A DNA stretch of 64,000 nucleotides from Comamonadaceae bacterium (GTDB taxonomy: Bacteria > Pseudomonadota > Gammaproteobacteria > Burkholderiales > Burkholderiaceae_C), in the NCBI GenBank assembly GCA_947455465.1, contig CANGNS010000014.1, positions 1 through 64,000 of the forward strand. Reading direction: 5' to 3'. Under the pieces are notes generated by a model. That model worked only from the letters and a program-made list of their open reading frames with translations, made no database searches and was not told the DNA's origin. The position numbers were made by a program, and so were the translations under genes. Position 1 is the stretch's first letter. Each line of letters begins with the position of its first letter. Positions 4,412-34,945 of this stretch are shown here, piece by piece.

Positions 4412-4604
4412 TTTTCACTTTTCCATCACCTTTTTAGGTTTGCAAAAAACTACGGTTACGGACAGCTAGTGACATGCTGGCTTCCTTCGGTAGAGGACCG
4501 GTTTTCCATTGTCCTACTGTGAATAGGAAAGATTGCTCCAGTTCACAGACTGAGCATTTTGGTTATCGGTCTTTATGACTCCTTTGTGGCCTGGGGCATT
4601 GCAG

Positions 4605-7508: not shown

Positions 7509-8500
7509 AGGCGCGCGCACTTTTTGCCGCGCTCACGCTGGCCGTGCTTTCGCTCGGGCTGGCCCCGGCCAGCTTCGCTGCCGACAAAGCGCGTACCAAG
7601 CCGTCTGCGGTGCGCAAGCCGCCCGCCGATGGCCCGCTGACCATGGTCATCGTCGGCGACATGATGCTCGAAGACGGCCCCATGGACGCCATGCGCAAAG
7701 GCCGCGACCCCTACGCCGGTTTTGCCAGTCTGTTTGCGGGCGCTGACATCCGCATTGGCAACCTGGAGTGCGTGGTGGCCACCGTCGGCAGCCCCGAGGA
7801 CGACAAGCCCAATGTGTTTCGCGTCCACCCCCGCGCCCTGAAGTACCTCAAGCGCCACTTTGACGCCGTCGGCCTGGCCAACAACCACTCGGGCGACTTC
7901 GGCCCCGAGGCGTTTGCCCAAATGCTGGGTCTGCTCAAGAAAAACAATATTGGCGTTTACGGCGGCGGCATGAACCTGTCCGAGGCGCACCAACCCTGGA
8001 TCATCGAGCGCAAAGGCGTGCGCGTGGCGGTGCTGGGCTACGACGAGTTTCAGCCGCGCAGCTTCGAGGCCGACACCGACCGGCCCGGCGTCGCCTGGAG
8101 CGAGGACGCGCAAGTGGTGCGCGATATCCGCGCAGCGCGCACTATTTACAAAGCCGATGTGGTGATCCCGGTCATGCACTGGGGCTGGGAGGAGCCCGTG
8201 GCCAACGACCGCCAGCGCCAACTCGCCCGCCTGATGATCGACGCGGGCGCCGACGCCGTCATCGGCGGCCACCCGCACCAACTGCAAGACACCGAGCGCT
8301 ACAAAGGCAAGCCGATTTTTTATAGCCTGGGCAATTTTGTGTTTGATGGCTTTCCGCTGCCCATCAACTACATCGGCTGGGCCCTGCGCCTGGAGCTGGA
8401 CAAAACCGGCGTCCAAAAAGTGCAGGCCCACGTCTCCCACATCGGCCCCACCGGCCTGCCCCGCCCGGGCAAGGTGCTGGCGGACCCGACGCTAAAGTAG
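7505..8500 (+). CDS. CapA-family (poly-gamma-glutamate capsule type) calcineurin-like phosphoesterase
   Basis: A 331-residue protein with a signal peptide (ALTLAVLSLGLAPASFAAD) and the PGA_cap metallophosphoesterase fold: MVIVGDMMLEDGP, IRIGNLECVV, GLANNHSGDFG, VIPVMHWGWEEP and VIGGHPHQLQ supply the metal-binding Asp, Asn and His residues, followed by IFYSLGNFVFD. The family is named for CapA/PgsA of capsule polyglutamate synthesis, but many members outside such operons have unknown roles, and no capB or capC is nearby. The start at ATG 7505 is set by the 4-bp overlap with the exported protein gene and by the signal peptide; the frame can be extended 8 codons upstream. Confidence 0.88.
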   Translation: MKARALFAALTLAVLSLGLAPASFAADKARTKPSAVRKPPADGPLTMVIVGDMMLEDGPMDAMRKGRDPYAGFASLFAGADIRIGNLECVVATVGSPEDDKPNVFRVHPRALKYLKRHFDAVGLANNHSGDFGPEAFAQMLGLLKKNNIGVYGGGMNLSEAHQPWIIERKGVRVAVLGYDEFQPRSFEADTDRPGVAWSEDAQVVRDIRAARTIYKADVVIPVMHWGWEEPVANDRQRQLARLMIDAGADAVIGGHPHQLQDTERYKGKPIFYSLGNFVFDGFPLPINYIGWALRLELDKTGVQKVQAHVSHIGPTGLPRPGKVLADPTLK

Positions 8501-8532
8501 GGCGTCTAAAAGGGTCGGGCGTCGGCGCGCTT

Positions 8533-8739
8533 TTATTCCGCTGCCGGCTCCTGCGCAGGCGGCAGCGCATCCGCCGCATCATTGGGGCCTAAGCGGCCGC
8601 GCCGCGCCAGACCTTCGCGCAGCAAAAACTCTACTTGCGCATTGGCGCTGCGCAGCTCTTGGGCGGCCAGTTTTTCGATGGCCGCCCACAGGGCGGGGTC
8701 AATGCGCAGGGGGTAGGCTTTTTTGCCGGGGCTGGCCAT
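8533..8739 (-). CDS. small Arc-like (ribbon-helix-helix) protein
   Basis: A 68-residue protein, start at ATG 8739 (MASPGKKAYPLRIDPALWAA). The N-terminal half, KAYPLRIDPALWAAIEKLAA then SANAQVEFLLREGLARRGR, reads as a short beta strand followed by two helices, as in Arc/MetJ-type DNA-binding proteins; the tail is disordered and rich in Ala, Pro and Asp. It follows the SPFH-domain gene by 26 bp on the same strand and is presumably co-transcribed with it. It may bind DNA, but it could equally be a partner of the SPFH protein. Confidence 0.72.
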   Translation of the reverse strand: MASPGKKAYPLRIDPALWAAIEKLAAQELRSANAQVEFLLREGLARRGRLGPNDAADALPPAQEPAAE

Positions 8740-8765
8740 GGCGTGGCTGCTTGCGTGCGGGTGCT

Positions 8766-9641
8766 TTAGTTGTAGAGGGTGCCGGTGTTGACCACGGGGC
8801 TGACTTCGCGGTCGGCGCACAGTACCACGAGCAGATTGCTCACCATGGCGGCTTTGCGCTCGTCGTCCAGTTCGATGATGTTGCGCTCGGACAAGCCCAG
8901 CAGGGCCGCTTCCACCATGCCCACCGCGCCAGCGACGATTTTGTGGCGCGCGCTCACGATGGCCTCGGCTTGCTGGCGGCGCAGCATGACTTGCGCGATT
9001 TCGGGGGCGTAGGCCAAGTGGGTGAGCTTGGCGTCCAGCACATCGACACCGGCCAGCGCAAAGCGCGCTTGCAACTCGGCTTTGAGGGCGTGGGCCACCT
9101 CGTCCAGGCCGGCGCGCAAGGTGGTCTCGCCCGGAGCGAGGTCTTCGCCCTCGTCATAGGCGTAGACCGAGGCCAAATGGCGCAGCGCGGTTTCGGCCTG
9201 GATGGCGACAAAGCGCTCGTAGTTGTCGATCTCAAACAGCGCCTGGGCCGAGTCGCGCACGATCCAGACCACGGCGGCGCCGATTTCCACCGGGTTGCCG
9301 CGCTTGTCATTGACCTTGAGCGCCGCCGTGTTGAGGTTGCGCGCCCGCAGCGAGATTTTTTGCTTGGCCTGCAAGGGATTGGCCCAGCGCAGGCCCTGGC
9401 TGCGGTCCGTGCCGCTGTACTGGCCAAACAGGGTGAGGATGGCGCCTGTATTGGGCTGCATCATGTACAAACCGGCACCCAGCAGGGCGGCCAGCGCCAA
9501 CAGCACCGCGCCGACCGCGTGCGATCCGTTGTGCAGGGCTGACAGGCCCGACACCAGCAAAACCAGAATCAGCCCGACCATGCCAAAACCGTTAACAGAC
9601 TGGTAACTGCGCTCGGTATGCGGCGTTTGAATCGTGGACAT
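8766..9641 (-). CDS. SPFH/band-7 domain membrane protein
   Basis: A 291-residue protein. Two membrane segments (about residues 19-36 and 41-61) are followed by an SPFH (stomatin/prohibitin/flotillin/HflK) domain: [54 protein letters not shown] and [20 protein letters not shown]. Such proteins oligomerise on the inner membrane and organise microdomains or protease access. The start is ATG 9641 because AAGGAG ends 6 nt before it; an ATG at 9647 sits inside that ribosome binding site. It leads a two-gene unit with the Arc-like gene and is preceded by a good sigma70 promoter. Confidence 0.87.
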
Positions 9642-9670
9642 AAGCATCTCCTTTTTGAAAATATGATATC

Positions 9671-9699
9671 ACTATAGTATCAAAATGGAATCAGATCAA
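9671..9699 (-). promoter_or_regulatory. sigma70-type promoter of the SPFH gene with overlapping inverted repeat
   Basis: On the minus strand TTGATC (9699-9694) and TATAGT (9676-9671) are separated by exactly 17 bp, ending about 30 bp before the SPFH start. The -10 box lies inside an inverted repeat with perfect arms TGATA (9664-9668) and TATCA (9678-9682), a possible operator; the Arc-like protein of the same operon is an obvious candidate to bind it, which is inference. Confidence 0.6.
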
Positions 9700-9793
9700 G
9701 AATGCTGGTGCGCACTGCGCGCCGGCTGAGCTGCGGTATCGTTGTGCCTGTGCGGCCGACTGGGCCGCCCTTGTTTTGACAGGAAATAAGCCC

Positions 9794-10843
9794 ATGAAAT
9801 ACGCTGCCATCCCCCGCGACCGCCTGCCCGCCTTGCTCGCGCACATGCCCAAGACCGAGTTGCACATTCATATCGAGGGCTCGCTCGAGCCCGAGCTGAT
9901 TTTTGCGCTGGCCGAGAAAAATGGGGTCGCCCTGAGCTACCCCAGCGTGGAGGCCCTGCGCGCGGCCTATGCCTTTACCGACCTGCAAAGCTTTTTGGAC
10001 CTGTACTACGCCGGCGCCTCGGTGCTGATGAATGAGGACGACTTTTACCGCATGGCCATGGCCTACTTTGCGCGGGCGCATGCCGACCACATCGTCCACG
10101 CCGAGCTGTTTTTTGACCCGCAAACCCACACCGAGCGCGGCGTGCCCATGGGCGCGGTCATCGAGGGGCTGGCCCGCGCCTGTGCGGATGCCAAAGCGCA
10201 CTACGGCATCAGCGCCAGCCTGATCCTGTGCTTTTTGCGGCATTTGTCGGAGGAATCGGCCTTTGAAACCCTGCAAGCGGCTTTGCCCTACCGCCAGCAC
10301 TTTATCGGGGTGGGCCTGGACTCGGGCGAGCGCGGTAATCCGCCGGAAAAGTTTGCCCGCGTCTTTGCGCAATGCCGGGCGCTGGGCCTGCACATCGTGG
10401 CCCACGCCGGCGAGGAGGGGCCGCCGGCGTACATCGAGAGCGCGCTGGACGTGCTGCAGGTGCAGCGCATCGACCACGGTGTGCGCTGCAGCGACGACCC
10501 GGCCTTGGTGCGTCGCCTGGCCGCCAGCGGTATGCCGCTGACGGTGTGTCCGCTGTCCAACGTCAAGCTGTGTGTGTTCCCCACCATGCAAGACCACAAC
10601 CTGGCCACGCTGCTGCACGCCGGGCTGTGCATCACCCTGAACTCGGACGATCCGGCCTACTTTGGTGGCTATTTGCTCACCAACTTCGAGGCCGTGTTTA
10701 CCGCCCTGCCCAGCCTGGGCGCGCAAGACGCCTGGCAACTGGCGCGCAACAGCATCGACGCCAGCTTTGCCGGCGAGCCCGATAAAGCCGCCTGGCGCGC
10801 CGCGCTGGACCAGGTGTTTGACCAGGCGCTGGCGGGCGCCTAA
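9794..10843 (+). CDS. adenine deaminase (adenosine deaminase-like family)
   Basis: A 349-residue metal-dependent amidohydrolase. The zinc motif HIHIEGSLEPELIFALAEKN (His24, His26), FFDPQTHTERGVP, FLRHLSEE, VAHAGEEGPP, RIDHGV and TLNSDDPAYFGGY follow the order of bacterial and fungal adenine deaminases (Aah1 type), which turn adenine into hypoxanthine. The S-L-E-P start and the D-P-A-Y-F-G-G-Y loop separate this group from true adenosine deaminases, so adenine is the more likely substrate. ATG 9794 is preceded by AGGAAA at 9781-9786; an upstream in-frame start at 9776 has no such site. Confidence 0.88.
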   Translation: MKYAAIPRDRLPALLAHMPKTELHIHIEGSLEPELIFALAEKNGVALSYPSVEALRAAYAFTDLQSFLDLYYAGASVLMNEDDFYRMAMAYFARAHADHIVHAELFFDPQTHTERGVPMGAVIEGLARACADAKAHYGISASLILCFLRHLSEESAFETLQAALPYRQHFIGVGLDSGERGNPPEKFARVFAQCRALGLHIVAHAGEEGPPAYIESALDVLQVQRIDHGVRCSDDPALVRRLAASGMPLTVCPLSNVKLCVFPTMQDHNLATLLHAGLCITLNSDDPAYFGGYLLTNFEAVFTALPSLGAQDAWQLARNSIDASFAGEPDKAAWRAALDQVFDQALAGA

Positions 10844-24645: not shown

Positions 24646-25795
24646 GGGGTGTGCGGCAGTTGCCGCGTTGTGCGCGCTGATTGTAGGTAGCCTGAGCGGT
24701 TGCGCCAGCGTCAGTTTGCAAGAGGCGGTGCCCGTGGCTGCGCCGGTGGCAGCAAGCCCAGCTACGCCGACCGTTGCGTCCGAGCCAGCGCGTGTGATCG
24801 GACAGGCGCGTAGCCGCTGGGTGGCGGTGCCCTGGAGCAGCCTGCCCGGCTGGGAGCAAGACCAATGGGAACCCGCGTGGCGCGCCTGGCAGAAAAGTTG
24901 CGAACGCGCCGCCACCATGCCGGCGGCTCTTTCGGCGCTGTGCCCGCAAGTGCGGGCCTTGGCCGGTGCCGAGCGCGCCGCCCAAAGCGCCTGGATGCAG
25001 CGCAGCTTGCAGCCCTACCGTGTCGAGAGCCTGCAAGGCGAGACGCAAGGTTTGCTTACCGGGTATTACGAACCTCTGTTCGAGGCCAGCCGCACGCCAA
25101 GCGCCGCGTTTTCGGTGCCGCTGTACGGGCCGCCGGTAGGCTTGGTTCGAGGTAAACCTTGGTACACACGCCAAGAAATCGAGACTTTGCCCGAGGCCAA
25201 GTCCGCGCTCAAGGGCCGCGTCATCGCCTACTTGGCCGATCCGATTGATGCCTTGGTGCTGCAAATTCAAGGTTCGGGGCGTATCCGCTTGCCACTGACT
25301 GATGGCAGCGCGCGCACCGTGCGCCTGGGCTTTGCGGGAACCAACGAGCAGCCGTACCAAAGCATTGGCAAGTGGCTGCTAGAACAAGGCCTGACGCGCG
25401 ATGCGACCTGGCTGGGCATCAAAGACTGGCTGGCGCGCAACCCGCAGCGCCAGCAGGAACTGCTCTGGCGCAACCCGCGCATGGTGTTTTTTAAAGAGGA
25501 GCCGCTGGCCGAAGCCGATGCGCAACTCGGGCCCCGGGGCGCCCAGGGCGTGGCCTTGACGCCGGGCCGCTCGATTGCCGTGGACCCGGGCAGCATGCCT
25601 TACGGTACGCCGGTGTGGATCAGCTCCGCCGGGGGCGCTGGCACGCTGCAGCAACTGGTGCTGGCCCAGGACACAGGCAGTGCCATCGTTGGTGCGGTAC
25701 GGGCCGACTTTTTTGCCGGCGCGGGCGCGCAGGCTGGCGAACTGGCGGGGCGGCTTAAGCAGCCCTTGCAGATGTGGGTGTTGTGGCCGAGGTGA
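24593..25795 (+). CDS. mltA: membrane-bound lytic murein transglycosylase A
   Basis: A 400-residue lipoprotein; the lipobox LSGC places the lipidated cysteine at residue 37 from this start. MltA stretches are TGYYEPLFEASR, VLQIQGSGRIRLPL, the 3D-domain AVDPGSMPYGTPVWI and VLAQDTGSAIVGAVRADFF, the last with the catalytic-domain aspartates. It cleaves peptidoglycan to 1,6-anhydromuropeptides at the outer membrane. ATG 24593 gives a signal peptide with Lys/Arg before the hydrophobic core; ATG 24644 would remove all positive charge but would avoid overlapping the antisense small gene. The frame also extends to a GTG at 24491 that overlaps the amidase stop. Confidence 0.92.
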   Translation: MPIKIRPAPRASNSIKVMGCAAVAALCALIVGSLSGCASVSLQEAVPVAAPVAASPATPTVASEPARVIGQARSRWVAVPWSSLPGWEQDQWEPAWRAWQKSCERAATMPAALSALCPQVRALAGAERAAQSAWMQRSLQPYRVESLQGETQGLLTGYYEPLFEASRTPSAAFSVPLYGPPVGLVRGKPWYTRQEIETLPEAKSALKGRVIAYLADPIDALVLQIQGSGRIRLPLTDGSARTVRLGFAGTNEQPYQSIGKWLLEQGLTRDATWLGIKDWLARNPQRQQELLWRNPRMVFFKEEPLAEADAQLGPRGAQGVALTPGRSIAVDPGSMPYGTPVWISSAGGAGTLQQLVLAQDTGSAIVGAVRADFFAGAGAQAGELAGRLKQPLQMWVLWPR

Positions 25796-25828
25796 AGCCT
25801 GTCAAAGTTGGCGCCTGGGAAAGCAACT

Positions 25829-27766
25829 TCACGCCTCAAGCCCGCCAGGGGTAGAGCACTTTTTCCCTTGCCCCATCATCCGCAGATCCTTAAGATCTTG
25901 CAAAATTGCTTGCCAGTGGCACCATATTAGATGATGACCGGCGCCCGGCTCTAGACGCAGGGGTGCGCCTCCCAAGGCTTTTGAAAGCGCTTGCGCCGCC
26001 TGCCAGTGGACTGCCGGATCGGCGTCGCCATGCCAGATTTTGCAGGGCATCGTTGGGACCGGCAAGCCAAGGTTCCATCCACGCAAGGCTTGCATGCCGT
26101 TCTGTGCGATCAGCTCAGGGTCACGATCGGTCTCTTTCAGTAGCACTTTGGCGCGCTGACTTCTGAACAAAGCGTTGTTAAACAAATCCACTTCGGAGGC
26201 GGGCACCTCAGCTAAAAATGGTTGAAGAAAAGCAAACACATCTTTGCGTACGCTTTTTATCAAGGTTCTCGTTAGCATAGGTAAAAGGCTGGGTGTGAAA
26301 AGTGCCACCATCAATATCAAGCGGGTTTTAGGTGCGTAAAAACGCAGATCGCTTACATCGCCTAAGGGATTAATAGGAGACACCAGCAAAAGAGCCTTTA
26401 CACGATCGCCCAAGTTTCGCGCCAAGGCCAGCGCGTAGGGAGTACCCATAGACCAACTCAACACACTGAAATTATCAATGCCCAAATGCGTCAATAAATG
26501 CGTAATGTCACTTGGCCAGTCATCCATTTGCCCGCGCGGGTTCGGGTCTGAGTCGCCGCAACCGGGTCGGTCCGGGATGATCAAACGCAAGCCAAGCGCC
26601 GTGAGCACACTATCGTCGGGCGGACGGTCATGCTGCCCTTGTAAGAATGCATGGCATAACACTACCGGCCATCCGAGCGGGTCACCGCTGTCGGACCACG
26701 CTATCGAGCGTCCATCGGGCAATCGCAAGCGCCCACCAGGCGTCAAGTGGCCGGATTGGGTTGAAGTGCTTTGTAATTCGGCATGCCGCGCCAGAGTCAT
26801 CGGCTCCGCTCCGGTCAGGTCCAGCCACAATGGGCTGACGTAAATCGCTTGCACTAAATCTGACTGGCGCTTGACGCCTACTTTGGCAAACACTTTTTTT
26901 AGCTGGCTTTTGGCTGTGTTGTGACTGATACTCAGCGCATGGGCTGCTTCCTCAATACTTTGGCCGAGCACCAATTGTTGCGTCAAGCGCGACTCAGCCG
27001 CGCTGAGCCCGAAAAAGGCGCCAAGAGCTTCAGTCGATAAGGCTCGACTGCCAGGACTAGCCGCCAGTACCAAGGCGCGGTCATTCTCCTTGCCCGCGCC
27101 TAAGTGACTAATCCATAAAGACAGGCCCCCGGTAGACGCCGACCCAGTTTGCGATATTTCGTCGGATACGGCCGCTAAGCGCAAACTGGCATGTTCTTGC
27201 TGGCCGCATAAGACCCGCGCCAAGCCTTGGGTAAGCGCCCCAGGCGGATGGGTTTCTAAGCAGCCATCCCGTAACCCCAAGGGCTTGTCCGACTGCAGCA
27301 GGGCGAGCATGGCGCGGTTCATGCTGATCGCCTGGCCCATGCCATCGACGATAGCAACGCCCAGGGGTAGACGGTCCATCAGGCGCTCAAGCACATCGCG
27401 CTCGATCTCTGTTTCTTTCAAAGTGCGCAGCATCTCTTGACTACGGGCGAAATGGGGTGCCAGGCAAGCCAGTAAGTACGCCTCTGCCGCGCTGGGTTCT
27501 AGGGAAATATTCATGCCCTTGATGTTCTTAAGCCCCAACAGACCCACATCGTCCGGCAAGGCCATGGTTCCGACTTTGGACTCCAGCACCAAAGCGGCCA
27601 CGCTCTCGAGTAAGCGTGGCCACAGGCTTTCATCGCTGGCAGTGTCGTAAATCAGTCCGATGACGGCTGATAGTTGCTCAGGAAACCCCGGCGTCACCGC
27701 GCCCGGTGGCGAGGCGCAGGCCGATGCAGAGTTTTCGAAAGGGGCAGGCCGGGGATCGGTCACCAT
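25829..27766 (-). CDS. LuxR-type regulator fused to an alpha/beta hydrolase
   Basis: A 645-residue protein of three parts. Residues about 30-240 resemble a sensory region with a PAS-like stretch (MDRLPLGVAIVDGMGQAISM at 130-149). Residues about 250-310 form a LuxR-type helix-turn-helix (LSAAESRLTQQLVLGQSIEE, then SISHNTAKSQLKKVFAKVGV). Residues about 340-625 are a complete alpha/beta hydrolase with oxyanion region CHAFLQGQ, nucleophile elbow SWSMG (Ser439), Asp583 in HGDADPAVH and His611 in GAGHH. All catalytic residues are kept, so it may cleave its ligand or merely bind it. ATG 27766 follows a GGTGAT-type ribosome binding site by 7 nt. It diverges from the lipoprotein gene, with a perfect inverted repeat between them. 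Confidence 0.88.
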   Translation of the reverse strand: MVTDPRPAPFENSASACASPPGAVTPGFPEQLSAVIGLIYDTASDESLWPRLLESVAALVLESKVGTMALPDDVGLLGLKNIKGMNISLEPSAAEAYLLACLAPHFARSQEMLRTLKETEIERDVLERLMDRLPLGVAIVDGMGQAISMNRAMLALLQSDKPLGLRDGCLETHPPGALTQGLARVLCGQQEHASLRLAAVSDEISQTGSASTGGLSLWISHLGAGKENDRALVLAASPGSRALSTEALGAFFGLSAAESRLTQQLVLGQSIEEAAHALSISHNTAKSQLKKVFAKVGVKRQSDLVQAIYVSPLWLDLTGAEPMTLARHAELQSTSTQSGHLTPGGRLRLPDGRSIAWSDSGDPLGWPVVLCHAFLQGQHDRPPDDSVLTALGLRLIIPDRPGCGDSDPNPRGQMDDWPSDITHLLTHLGIDNFSVLSWSMGTPYALALARNLGDRVKALLLVSPINPLGDVSDLRFYAPKTRLILMVALFTPSLLPMLTRTLIKSVRKDVFAFLQPFLAEVPASEVDLFNNALFRSQRAKVLLKETDRDPELIAQNGMQALRGWNLGLPVPTMPCKIWHGDADPAVHWQAAQALSKALGGAPLRLEPGAGHHLIWCHWQAILQDLKDLRMMGQGKKCSTPGGLEA

Positions 27767-27831
27767 AAAGCACATCACCCTTTCGGGTTATTCGTAGCCA
27801 AAAAGGCAATTTTCTGGCGAGATTGACGCGC

Positions 27832-27855
27832 TGTAAATACCTTTTCGGATTTACA
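27832..27855. promoter_or_regulatory. perfect inverted repeat in the divergent promoter region, candidate LuxR-type operator
   Basis: TGTAAAT (27832-27838) and ATTTACA (27849-27855) form a perfect 7-bp inverted repeat with a 10-bp spacer. It lies 66 bp upstream of the regulator-hydrolase start and 60 bp upstream of the lipoprotein start, in the only non-coding stretch between them. Length and symmetry suit a dimeric LuxR-type regulator. A TTGACG sits just beside it at 27823-27828, but no matching -10 box was found at the right spacing. That the fused regulator binds here is inference. Confidence 0.55.
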
Positions 27856-27914
27856 TTTTTTTGGTGTGCAAAAGCGCTTTTTCCGCGCACCGTTTTCATT
27901 GAAAGGTAATCACT

Positions 27915-29687
27915 ATGAACAAATTGACTATTGCCGCCTTGGCCGTACTAGCGCTATTGGGCGCTTGCGGAGGAGGAGGCCAAAGCCAAGGTGCAGCGTC
28001 TGGTGGTGGGGGTGTAATCGGCAACAATACATCCATACCAACAATCAGTACTTTGACAATTACAGGTCGAGCTGCAAATACGATCGCGCTCAGCGGTGCC
28101 ACGGTCGATTATGTTTGCGCCGCCGGTACCGCCAGTGTCAGCACCGGGACCGACGGCAGCTATAAGGCCACAGTTGCTGACGGAAAATGGCCGTGCATTG
28201 GTGAACTGACTTCTGCGGGAACCACTCCATTGCATACCGCTGCAAACGGCGGCGCGGGTAACAGTGCCACGGCCCAAATCACCCCATTGACCGAGCTGGT
28301 GGTCGCCAAGCTGGCCGGTACCGATACCAAAACTTTTTTTTCCAATTTCAAAGCATTGCCCTTTGCCAATAAATCCTTAGTGGCCGCGGACAGCAAAGTG
28401 CAGTCGGCGCAAACTGCGGTGAAAACCGTGTTGGCAGCCGCTGGCATCAGTACGCTGGGCACCGTCGATCTGCTTGTCGACGCCCTGCAGGTAAATACAG
28501 CCTCAGACGCGCACGGCGCTGGCTTGCAAAGTTTCAATACCAAATTAGCGGGCGCTGGCACTACCTTGGGCGCATTAGCTTCCAGCCTTGTTGCTACACC
28601 ACCTCCAGGCGCGGGTACGGAAATTCAGCAGGTGGCGACGGCGCAGCTTTTGCAGCCGGCTGCGGTCAATTGCCCGGGTTTACGGGGAGGTATTTACCGC
28701 TATATCAATTTCGTTGGCACGGACAAGGTTTATGTGGACGCTGAAAAATTGACGGTAACGAACAGCAAAAATTATGTAACCTATCTCAAACCAGTCGATG
28801 GTGACGCCTGCCATTTCAAGGGATATGACAGTAGCGCATTTGCTAGTGCAAGCCCTTCAGATTTGGTGGTATCTCAGGCTGGTATCGTTCTTATACGCGG
28901 TTGGAACGATCTCTTTAGTAACTACGCACTGGCGATCGCCTTTCCAGAGCAAACCGGATTTACCCTGGCCGACGTAGCAGGAGATTGGAATGCTTTGTCT
29001 ATGGAGGCGGATATAGCTCAAACCTATGTCGGTGCTTTAGAGCAATCGACCATTGGCAGCGACGGCGTCGCCATCAGCGTGCGGTTTTGCCAAGACCCGA
29101 GCTGGGACGTCAGCTCGTGCAAGGTATTAAGTGGCACCGAATTACAAAATCAGTACCCTCGCTTGAGTATCAACAAGGACGACAATGGGTTTTACCTAAC
29201 TGGCCCCGGTAAATCCACCCCTGGCGGACGTTTATTTGCCTATCGGTCGGGGACTGGTGATTTATTTGCGGTTAATTTTTGGACCGATGGAAGCTTTGGA
29301 ATCGCTGCCCGCCAACGCACGCTTGCTGCACCGACCGTAGGAAGTGGTACCAACTCCTGGAATCTACAAATAAGTAACGCCTTAGTGGCTGCCGATATAT
29401 CCTCAGGAACCACCACCATTGTTTCGGTGGCAGACGCGAAAGCTGCAAGCACCAGTTATTTGCGTACCAACCAAACTACCGGGCTTGCTGATTTGCATTC
29501 GGAAACTCTGACCAATAACATGCCATATTCTGGTTTTCGTCAGCGCGCCGCTGGAAAAGATACCAGCGTGACCCCCAACCAATCATTTAGCCGTCTAGAC
29601 CAATTGCCGCTGCAAGGTATGGGTATTACTATCAGTCTGAATGAAACCAATAAACGATTCCAAGTATCGGTACAGAAACCCAATTAG
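27915..29687 (+). CDS. large surface lipoprotein of unknown function
   Basis: A 590-residue lipoprotein; the lipobox LLGAC gives Cys18, followed by a Gly-rich linker. Residues about 40-110 look like a carboxypeptidase-regulatory/Ig-like domain (GRAANTIALSGATVDYVCAA with a paired cysteine in WPCIG), followed by an Ala-rich helical stretch (about 150-230) and a beta-rich C-terminal part with several cysteines (for example VNCPGL, DACHFKG, FCQDPSWDVSSC). I recognise no catalytic motif. GC content is lower than the neighbouring housekeeping genes. It diverges from the LuxR-hydrolase gene and is followed after 21 bp by a beta-barrel gene, so the two probably form one envelope operon. Confidence 0.85.
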   Translation: MNKLTIAALAVLALLGACGGGGQSQGAASGGGGVIGNNTSIPTISTLTITGRAANTIALSGATVDYVCAAGTASVSTGTDGSYKATVADGKWPCIGELTSAGTTPLHTAANGGAGNSATAQITPLTELVVAKLAGTDTKTFFSNFKALPFANKSLVAADSKVQSAQTAVKTVLAAAGISTLGTVDLLVDALQVNTASDAHGAGLQSFNTKLAGAGTTLGALASSLVATPPPGAGTEIQQVATAQLLQPAAVNCPGLRGGIYRYINFVGTDKVYVDAEKLTVTNSKNYVTYLKPVDGDACHFKGYDSSAFASASPSDLVVSQAGIVLIRGWNDLFSNYALAIAFPEQTGFTLADVAGDWNALSMEADIAQTYVGALEQSTIGSDGVAISVRFCQDPSWDVSSCKVLSGTELQNQYPRLSINKDDNGFYLTGPGKSTPGGRLFAYRSGTGDLFAVNFWTDGSFGIAARQRTLAAPTVGSGTNSWNLQISNALVAADISSGTTTIVSVADAKAASTSYLRTNQTTGLADLHSETLTNNMPYSGFRQRAAGKDTSVTPNQSFSRLDQLPLQGMGITISLNETNKRFQVSVQKPN

Positions 29688-29708: not shown

Positions 29709-30350
29709 ATGAAAAAAAGTATTCTTGCCCTGGCCCTGTTTGCAAGCGCCCTACCCGCCATGGCCAGCGATGTGTATGTCGGCCTGGGTTTTCCGGGTTT
29801 GTTTGGGATTGGTTTTGCCCGTCCGCTCAATGCGAGTTTTGGCTTGCGTGCCGAATATTCGGGCGGTATCAAGGTGAGCAAAGATGGGAATCAGGAAGGC
29901 GTCAATGTGGTGGGCAGCTTGCAAGGCTCGCGCTTGGGTGCTTTTGCCGACTATTACCCTTTCCAGGGCGGCTTGCGCTTGGTTGCGGGGCTGACCTCCA
30001 ACGATATTCAGGCCAAGCTGACATCGACGGGAACGGGCACGGCGCAAATTAATGGCAAGCAGGTTGATATGTCGGGCCAGCGTTTTGACATCACTGTCAA
30101 ATACCCCAGTAGCACCCCGTACCTAGGTATTGGCTGGGGCCACCAACAAAGTGATACTAAAGGTCTTGGTGGTTATCTAGACGCGGGCGTCATGGTGGGC
30201 AGTTTTGGCATTTCTGCCAGCACCAGCTTGGTCAATGTGCAGGGTATTACCCAAGCCGACGTGGATGCCCAAATCGCCAAGATCAGCGACGCGACCAATA
30301 AGCTGTCGGTGTTGCCGTCGGTATCCCTAGGGCTGGTCTACCGCTTCTGA
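29709..30350 (+). CDS. small outer-membrane beta-barrel protein
   Basis: A 213-residue protein with a signal peptide (MKKSILALALFASALPAMAS) and alternating hydrophobic strands throughout, ending in L-V-Y-R-F; a C-terminal phenylalanine is the signal for insertion by the Bam complex. Strands such as FGLRAEYSGGIKV and YLGIGWGHQQ fit an 8-stranded OmpA-like barrel. Function unknown. A strong ribosome binding site (AAAGGAGAG) precedes the start. It follows the lipoprotein gene closely and may carry or partner it at the cell surface. Confidence 0.85.
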   Translation: MKKSILALALFASALPAMASDVYVGLGFPGLFGIGFARPLNASFGLRAEYSGGIKVSKDGNQEGVNVVGSLQGSRLGAFADYYPFQGGLRLVAGLTSNDIQAKLTSTGTGTAQINGKQVDMSGQRFDITVKYPSSTPYLGIGWGHQQSDTKGLGGYLDAGVMVGSFGISASTSLVNVQGITQADVDAQIAKISDATNKLSVLPSVSLGLVYRF

Positions 30351-34212: not shown

Positions 34213-34527
34213 ATGCAAACAGTTACATCGCGTGAGGTGCAAAGTCGGTACGGAGAATTCCTTGAGTCCGTACAAGACGATCTTGTCTGCGTGACCCGCC
34301 ATGGGCGCCCACTTTTTTGGGCTTTGTCAGATCGCCATGTTCGTGCGCCTGACCCCAGCATCCTGATTGGCCGAATGTTGCTGCTGCACGGTCAGCTCAA
34401 CCGTGAGACGCAAGAGCGTGCAGGCGATGCGTTCGCGAAAGTCCTAGAGGAACTCGATGCTAGCCTTGACCCACAAGATTTGACACAAGAAAAAGTAATG
34501 ACCATCGTGCATGAGAACAGAGCCTAA
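34213..34527 (+). CDS. Phd/YefM-like antitoxin
   Basis: A 104-residue protein whose first 45 residues match Phd/YefM antitoxins: VTSREVQSRYGEFLESVQDD then VCVTRHGRPLFWALSD. The C-terminal half is acidic and helical, suited to wrapping a toxin. AAGGA precedes the start by 8 nt. The stop lies 17 bp inside the following PIN-domain gene, the usual coupled arrangement. The region differs in composition from the chromosome around it. Confidence 0.82.
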   Translation: MQTVTSREVQSRYGEFLESVQDDLVCVTRHGRPLFWALSDRHVRAPDPSILIGRMLLLHGQLNRETQERAGDAFAKVLEELDASLDPQDLTQEKVMTIVHENRA

Positions 34528-34945
34528 GCCGCGCCTCATTCTTGACACGAACGTCATCATCAGTGGGGTCTTGTTCAAAGGGGAGGCCATTCGCAGCCTA
34601 TTGCTTTATGCGCTTAACGAGTACCAGCTCGTATTTAGTCAAACCACTTGGGATGAGCTGGCATCGGTTTTTCAGCGCGATGCGTTCGAAAAAATAATGC
34701 CTTTAGGCGCTCGCTTGCGCGTGCTGGCGGAATTGGCCAGTAAGGTGGAGGTCGTTCAAAGCACAAGCACCGTCACGGATTGCCGAGACCCGAAGGACAA
34801 CAAGTTTCTTTCCCTGGCCATTGATGCCAATGCCATTGCGATCGTTACTGGCGACGACGACCTGAAAGTGCTGCACCCGTACAAAGGCATCGCCATTCAA
34901 TCTCCGGCTGACTTTATTCGCCTGCAGATGCCGGCATCACGATAG
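34511..34945 (+). CDS. PIN-domain toxin (putative ribonuclease)
   Basis: A 144-residue PIN protein of the 'putative toxin component, PIN family' group. Acidic metal-binding residues are visible in LILDTNVIISGVLF (first Asp), TTWDELASVF (Glu), DCRDPKDNKFLSLAID (Asp) and VTGDDDLKVL (Asp). PIN toxins cleave tRNA, rRNA or mRNA. The gene overlaps its antitoxin gene by 17 bp. The pair sits between the intact oxidoreductase gene and a second copy of that gene's 3' end. Confidence 0.87.
   Translation: MRTEPKPRLILDTNVIISGVLFKGEAIRSLLLYALNEYQLVFSQTTWDELASVFQRDAFEKIMPLGARLRVLAELASKVEVVQSTSTVTDCRDPKDNKFLSLAIDANAIAIVTGDDDLKVLHPYKGIAIQSPADFIRLQMPASR

Follow-up and report, generated by a model that had tools for sequence, protein, structure and literature searches.

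A PAS, LuxR-type helix-turn-helix and alpha/beta hydrolase fusion as a candidate one-component receptor in Comamonadaceae

A hydrolase-fold protein that takes part in bacterial signalling is RsbQ of Bacillus, a separate protein that acts with a phosphatase and is not fused to a helix-turn-helix (HTH). The plant receptors D14/DAD2, KAI2 and GID1 use the alpha/beta hydrolase fold as a receptor; the cited sections of PMC3531792 report that the catalytic His is lost in GID1, that a working triad is kept in DAD2 and that a step from enzyme to receptor has been proposed for DAD2/KAI2 and for GID1. The quorum-sensing receptor VqmA of Vibrio and phage VP882 consists, in the part of PMC8284805 cited here, of an N-terminal PAS receptor domain, which dimerises and binds the ligand, and a C-terminal DNA-binding domain. 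Here we describe a fusion regulator encoded at 25829..27766 on the minus strand of the window, by which we mean the whole 64,000-nucleotide stretch analysed (contig CANGNS010000014.1 of assembly GCA_947455465.1, Comamonadaceae bacterium, positions 1 to 64,000). As in VqmA, a PAS domain precedes a LuxR-type HTH. The protein differs from VqmA by a hydrolase of ~270 residues after the HTH. The plant receptors signal through a separate partner protein; in the window protein the hydrolase fold is fused to the HTH, and a further partner may exist.

We propose that this protein is a one-component regulator, in which the PAS-HTH part would bind a palindrome upstream of its own gene and control both that gene and a divergent lipoprotein gene, while the hydrolase domain would serve as receptor. 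From the sequence comparisons presented below, we put the probability of this reading at roughly 60%.

Domain architecture and relatives

The frame comprises 645 codons plus stop. A PAS-like domain with a preceding helix (residues 117-239; 27050..27418, minus strand, like all parts of the frame) lies directly N-terminal of a LuxR/GerE HTH (residues 250-314; 26825..27019), which is followed by the alpha/beta hydrolase domain (residues 367-615; 25922..26668). The HTH is thus not C-terminal, and it scores as GerE-type. The hydrolase match is above the cut-off, with the fold and the triad of Ser439, Asp583 and His611 present. An earlier note on this DNA had placed a LuxR-type HTH in mid-protein ahead of a hydrolase with these three residues and had asked whether the HTH would score as LuxR/GerE; both points are confirmed. 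Its description of the hydrolase as intact holds for the triad and fails for the oxyanion loop, which reads HAFLQG instead of the HGxPG-like form of stand-alone relatives: the window protein has A373 and L375, where the stand-alone relatives carry Gly (29/29) and Pro (28/29), respectively. The PAS domain, a second candidate sensor, is an addition to that note, as are the divergent lipoprotein and the palindromic site described below. An alternative GTG start at residue 24 (27695..27697, minus strand) would suit the length of the aligned relatives.

The VqmA-type order of PAS and HTH was recognised by fold matching, the only use made of the AlphaFold models. The PAS region (residues 118-238) matched 7dwm and the HTH region (240-313) matched 6ide; the predicted local distance difference test (pLDDT) score, averaged in blocks, was 59-86 across residues 131-310, except for a dip near 201-210.

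Six close relatives share 50-70% identity with the protein in the best segment and come from metagenome-assembled genomes labelled Comamonas, Comamonadaceae, Rhodoferax and beta proteobacterium. Further relatives were sought in genomes of the genus (103), family (299), order (399), class (350) and phylum (398), as well as in plasmids. Scored candidates were limited to the three best per genome for order, class and phylum, four for the family and twelve for the genus, and only the best-scoring places were retrieved; the fusion counts given here are therefore lower bounds and not per-genome frequencies. Three rows were discarded before counting: L100, which has its contig in common with L005, and one frame each in L045 (antisense) and L049 (overlapping). 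One profile sorted the retrieved places into 31 stand-alone hydrolase frames and 80 fusion frames; the latter come from 67 genomes or plasmid records. L008, cut before the nucleophile, is outside the 80. All three triad positions could be read in 77 of the 80 fusions.

The plasmid search yielded no place with at least 80% of the query covered. It did recover fusions in Aliiroseovarius, Maritalea, Ruegeria TM1040 and Sinorhizobium meliloti, at 25-26% identity over 57-64% of the query, with Gly, Gly, Asp and Ile, respectively, at the nucleophile position. Each of the four is annotated as one gene, named 'alpha/beta hydrolase' or 'LuxR C-terminal-related'; public records thus already hold such fusions under generic names. 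Among the papers listed by narrow phrase searches of Creative Commons-licensed articles in PubMed Central, none deals with a LuxR-hydrolase fusion of this architecture, which is weak evidence of absence, and the main text of PMC2447327 mentions a hydrolase once, in its reference list.

Loss of catalytic residues and exchange of hydrolase modules

The complete Ser-Asp-His triad is found in 20 of the 77 readable fusions, compared to 29 of the 31 stand-alone relatives from the same searches. The two stand-alone frames that are not intact are probably a split fusion (L166, frame at 10086) and a fusion with a missed HTH (L202); they are counted among the 31 and left out of the 29-row control. Ser occupies the nucleophile position in only 32 of the 80 fusions; the others have Gln (12), Gly (12), Asp (7), Val (7), Ala (4) or, once each, Cys, Ile, Thr, Met, Tyr or a gap. 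Homologues lacking the catalytic Ser, which the earlier note had suggested looking for, hence exist in number.

Retention was scored at 25 positions, those where the 29 intact stand-alone rows show conservation of 90% or more. In the oxyanion loop, the conserved residue is kept at 375 in 0/80 fusions, at 373 in 26/80 and at 378 in 35/77. The nucleophile at 439 is retained in 32/79, position 437 of the elbow in 41/80 and His611 in 39/77. Scaffold positions are largely spared, with retention of 79/80 at 361, 77/80 at 400, 76/80 at 352 and 75/80 at 402. These per-position counts indicate that the losses centre on the oxyanion loop, the nucleophile elbow and the catalytic His, with positions 549 and 447 falling outside the pattern.

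On a quick maximum-likelihood tree of 111 hydrolase domains, triads must have switched between the intact and the lost state 10 times or more, with six switches forced by starred branches; the minimum is 14 changes at the nucleophile and 15 at the His. Such counts do not tell whether a change was a gain or a loss, and long branches are present in the tree. The window protein falls into a Ser clade (support 99) adjoining a Gln clade formed by L005, L006, L007 and L091 (support 100). An independent-pairs test of fusion against triad loss had only three pairs and no power. For three pairs of the Gln clade, which belongs to the window's genus, the ratio of nonsynonymous to synonymous substitution rates (dN/dS) in the hydrolase domain was 0.114-0.127, and it was 0.113-0.227 for three Ser pairs. 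Because of the low ratios in the Gln clade, we conclude from these sequences that its Ser-less hydrolase domain is under purifying selection and not decaying.

An Asp nucleophile together with a retained His occurs in the fusions of L089 (4485-6122, Ruegeria sp. TM1040) and L183 (5079-6716). This combination is that of dehalogenases and epoxide hydrolases, and the two proteins may have changed their chemistry instead of losing it.

The earlier idea of a one-component hydrolase receptor, with an ester or lactone as its putative ligand, is partly supported: the receptor role is strengthened by the number of Ser-less homologues and the selection on the Gln clade. An alternative is a trigger enzyme, that is, an active esterase or lactonase whose fusion either couples catalysis to regulation or tethers the destroyer of a PAS ligand to the regulator. 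The intact triad of the window protein would suit such an enzyme. We consider it unlikely, as at least one triad residue is lost in 57 of the 77 readable fusions, the Gln clade next to the window remains constrained and none of the 80 fusions has the Pro at position 375.

Module exchange bears on a further alternative. Between L004 and L005, identity is 88% for the N-half and 94% for the HTH-linker, and it is 61% and then 41% for the two parts of the hydrolase domain. The pair L005 and L006 shows 62% and 78% in the N-half and HTH-linker and 74% and 77% in the hydrolase parts, and L004 and L093 show 66% identity in the N-half and 77%, then 66%, in the hydrolase. Identity shifts at the boundary of the parts cut at residue 369, close to the oxyanion loop; the cut point was our choice. 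It appears that near-identical PAS-HTH halves have traded hydrolase modules. Either a swap of domains or, in tandem paralogues, conversion of the N-half would account for the shift. A second, tandem regulator copy is present in L005 (7992-8683); its N-half is 95% identical to that of the first copy, it runs off the contig, and no box was seen directly before it. In L099, a further PAS-LuxR-like frame runs into the start of the fusion (9453-10325 and 7753-9492), and two regulators again stand in tandem.

If the PAS domain were the sole sensor, the hydrolase fold would be a scaffold for dimerisation or protein interaction. The PAS-HTH half resembles VqmA, whose PAS domain dimerises and binds ligand according to the cited part of PMC8284805, and the taxonomic family has many stand-alone regulators of this PAS-HTH build, with open frames of 372-537 residues. 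The window's own genome holds one such PAS-LuxR protein (L002, C1:229641), with 28% identity to the window protein over residues 102-318 and a GerE match above the cut-off. Unlike the window protein, L002 is a 389-residue frame without the hydrolase domain. Against a mere scaffold stand the swapping of hydrolase modules, as expected of a specificity module, and the greater variation of active-site positions than of most scaffold positions. This explanation, too, strikes us as improbable.

A palindromic box and a divergent lipoprotein gene

A palindromic box, ATAACCCGAAAGGGTGAT, lies between the regulator and the divergent lipoprotein gene (27774..27791, minus strand) and is the presumed operator. 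When the intergenic regions of nine close loci are aligned with those of two further loci, a single block stands out as well conserved in the nine, TCACCC-N4-GGGTGA or a near form, and this is present in all 11 readable loci of the genus, L008 and L094 included. A profile built from sites of the window's clade was scored on loci outside the profile with a threshold of 12 bits. This value was reached in 9/66 held-out upstream regions and in 1/71 and 2/71 intragenic controls. In all nine upstream cases, among them L094, the first neighbour is divergent. The box therefore recurs in some distant fusion members.

In the window's genome, the tight box pattern has a single site. In each of the 17 genomes searched, the loosened palindrome TCACCCNNNNGGGTGA is, among the matches listed, more frequent than its backward control, with 14 against 2 in the window's genome and 13 against 7 in the closest case. 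On these grounds we do not claim a single dedicated target: the single tight site is not proof of one, since the loosened box occurs 14 times, and the excess across 17 genomes argues against it. The excess suggests further targets or related regulators that share the box; the loosened palindrome is perhaps common to many PAS-LuxR regulators. The window has a second partial box, AAACCTAAAAAGGTGAT, at 4425-4441 (minus strand) with two mismatches; 10 of 100 shuffles likewise yielded two matches. In L186 and L207, full boxes (TCACCCATATGGGTGA and TCACCCGTTCGGGTGA) follow the regulator rather than precede it, within 470 bases downstream of the fusion, and in L186 a 1536-residue frame follows the regulator in the same direction.

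Instead of an operator, the palindrome could be a hairpin in the RNA that masks the ribosome-binding site. In the window, GGGTGAT lies 7 bases before the ATG at 27766 and would pair with AACCC. Such spacing is not kept in close relatives, where the palindrome lies far upstream of the likely start, and Rfam at gathering thresholds gave no match in 25700-28200. We regard the hairpin as very unlikely. In an intergenic scan, a single promoter-like site was assigned to the regulator (27837-27809; 0.2 expected), and no terminator was found.

The divergent gene (27915..29687, plus strand) encodes a lipoprotein of 590 residues with the lipobox LGAC and is the presumed target. It is directly followed by a gene, perhaps co-transcribed, for a 213-residue protein with a signal-peptide-like start and no Pfam match (29709..30350, plus strand). 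A lipoprotein-like divergent frame is present in all 11 readable loci of the genus (the window, L003-L008, L091, L092, L093 and L094); the twelfth, L095, starts inside the regulator and cannot be read upstream. The window lipoprotein resembles that of L003 at the N-terminus (35% identity over 170 residues) and has no significant similarity to that of L004.

In 43 of the 80 fusions, a divergent neighbour 120 residues long or longer lies within 700 bases. A crude predictor classed 16 of these 43 as lipoproteins; for the remaining neighbours the figure was 16 of 297 (Fisher p 4e-8, kinship ignored). No Pfam family is widespread among the 43, and none was matched by more than two of them. The neighbourhood of the S. 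meliloti fusion includes a TbpB-like lipoprotein together with Slam, an assembly factor, the Maritalea fusion has an HYR autotransporter downstream, and in L185 (6907-10328) the genes divergent from the Ser-less fusion encode a lipase containing Lipase_bact_N and a FadL-type channel. These neighbours fit a surface theme, and those in L185 could hint at a lipid or fatty acid ligand. The malate dehydrogenase-like genes at L220 and L221 lie outside the theme.

Elsewhere in the window, two overlapping small genes at 34213-34945 (plus strand) are a putative pair of antitoxin and PIN-domain toxin. In L004, a PIN-like frame follows the regulator (8184-8747).

The hydrolase fold as a candidate receptor

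In the proposed mechanism, the PAS domain and the LuxR-type HTH would form a VqmA-like, dimerising DNA-binding half, dimers of which would bind TCACCC-N4-GGGTGA at 27774-27791. The regulator would thereby act on two genes, its own and that of the divergent surface lipoprotein, with the surface protein as the output. The C-terminal hydrolase fold would be the ligand-binding domain, and binding of a small molecule to the former active site would alter the conformation of the HTH or the geometry of the dimer. The sequences themselves show the three-part architecture, the recurrent loss of catalytic residues, the constraint on one Ser-less clade, the exchange of modules, the palindrome and the divergent lipoprotein; DNA binding, dimerisation, the ligand, the direction of regulation and any hydrolytic activity are what we infer. 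As its triad is complete, the window protein may bind its ligand or bind and then slowly cleave it, as does the plant receptor D14; the oxyanion loop, which differs from that of the stand-alone relatives, weighs on the slow-cleavage mode. Since the PAS domain of VqmA both dimerises and binds ligand, the window protein may, by analogy, have two inputs.

Several points weigh against this proposal. With its complete triad, the window protein may simply be an enzyme, and sensing could lie with the PAS domain alone. Loss extends beyond the active site, in that positions 549 (36/78) and 447 (41/80) are lost about as often as the His, and Asp583 is retained in 63/76 fusions. The stand-alone controls were among the best-scoring matches of their searches, which may favour intact ones, and the residues at named positions rest on one profile alignment. 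The AlphaFold models are weak, with a mean pLDDT of 49.0 for the whole protein and 54.7 for the hydrolase. Upstream regions below 12 bits make up 57 of the 66 held out, 5 of 70 held-out downstream regions reach that value, and the loosened box is frequent in the window's genome. Once the eight loci of the window's genus are removed, 8 of 35 divergent neighbours are lipoproteins by the crude predictor.

That an assembly or frame artefact has merged two genes is hardly credible: the two halves do occur as adjacent frames in L166, L209 and L226, but 80 fusion frames in 67 genomes or plasmid records, including four single-gene annotations on plasmids of named strains, led us to reject it, and the earlier reading of one real frame stands over the assembly error, with HTH and hydrolase as separate genes, that would have undone it.

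Beyond the window, the fusions might represent a large class of bacterial transcription regulators, in which a DNA-binding-fused hydrolase fold has repeatedly turned from enzyme to receptor, exchangeable modules set ligand specificity and a shared operator, TCACCC-N4-GGGTGA, drives divergent surface proteins; we give this wider picture, in which the class would be a one-protein bacterial counterpart of GID1 and D14, slightly less than an even chance. If the proposal of a hydrolase-fold receptor is correct, the family would be a bacterial parallel to the plant hormone receptors that evolved from hydrolases. Bacteria would then have one more ligand-binding module, the hydrolase fold, in direct fusion with DNA-binding domains. 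The fusions provide a natural series for testing the step from enzyme to receptor, from an intact triad over the change of Ser to Gln to the loss of both Ser and His, partly within one genus. The exchange of modules between near-identical regulators, in turn, suggests a natural design for swapping input specificity.
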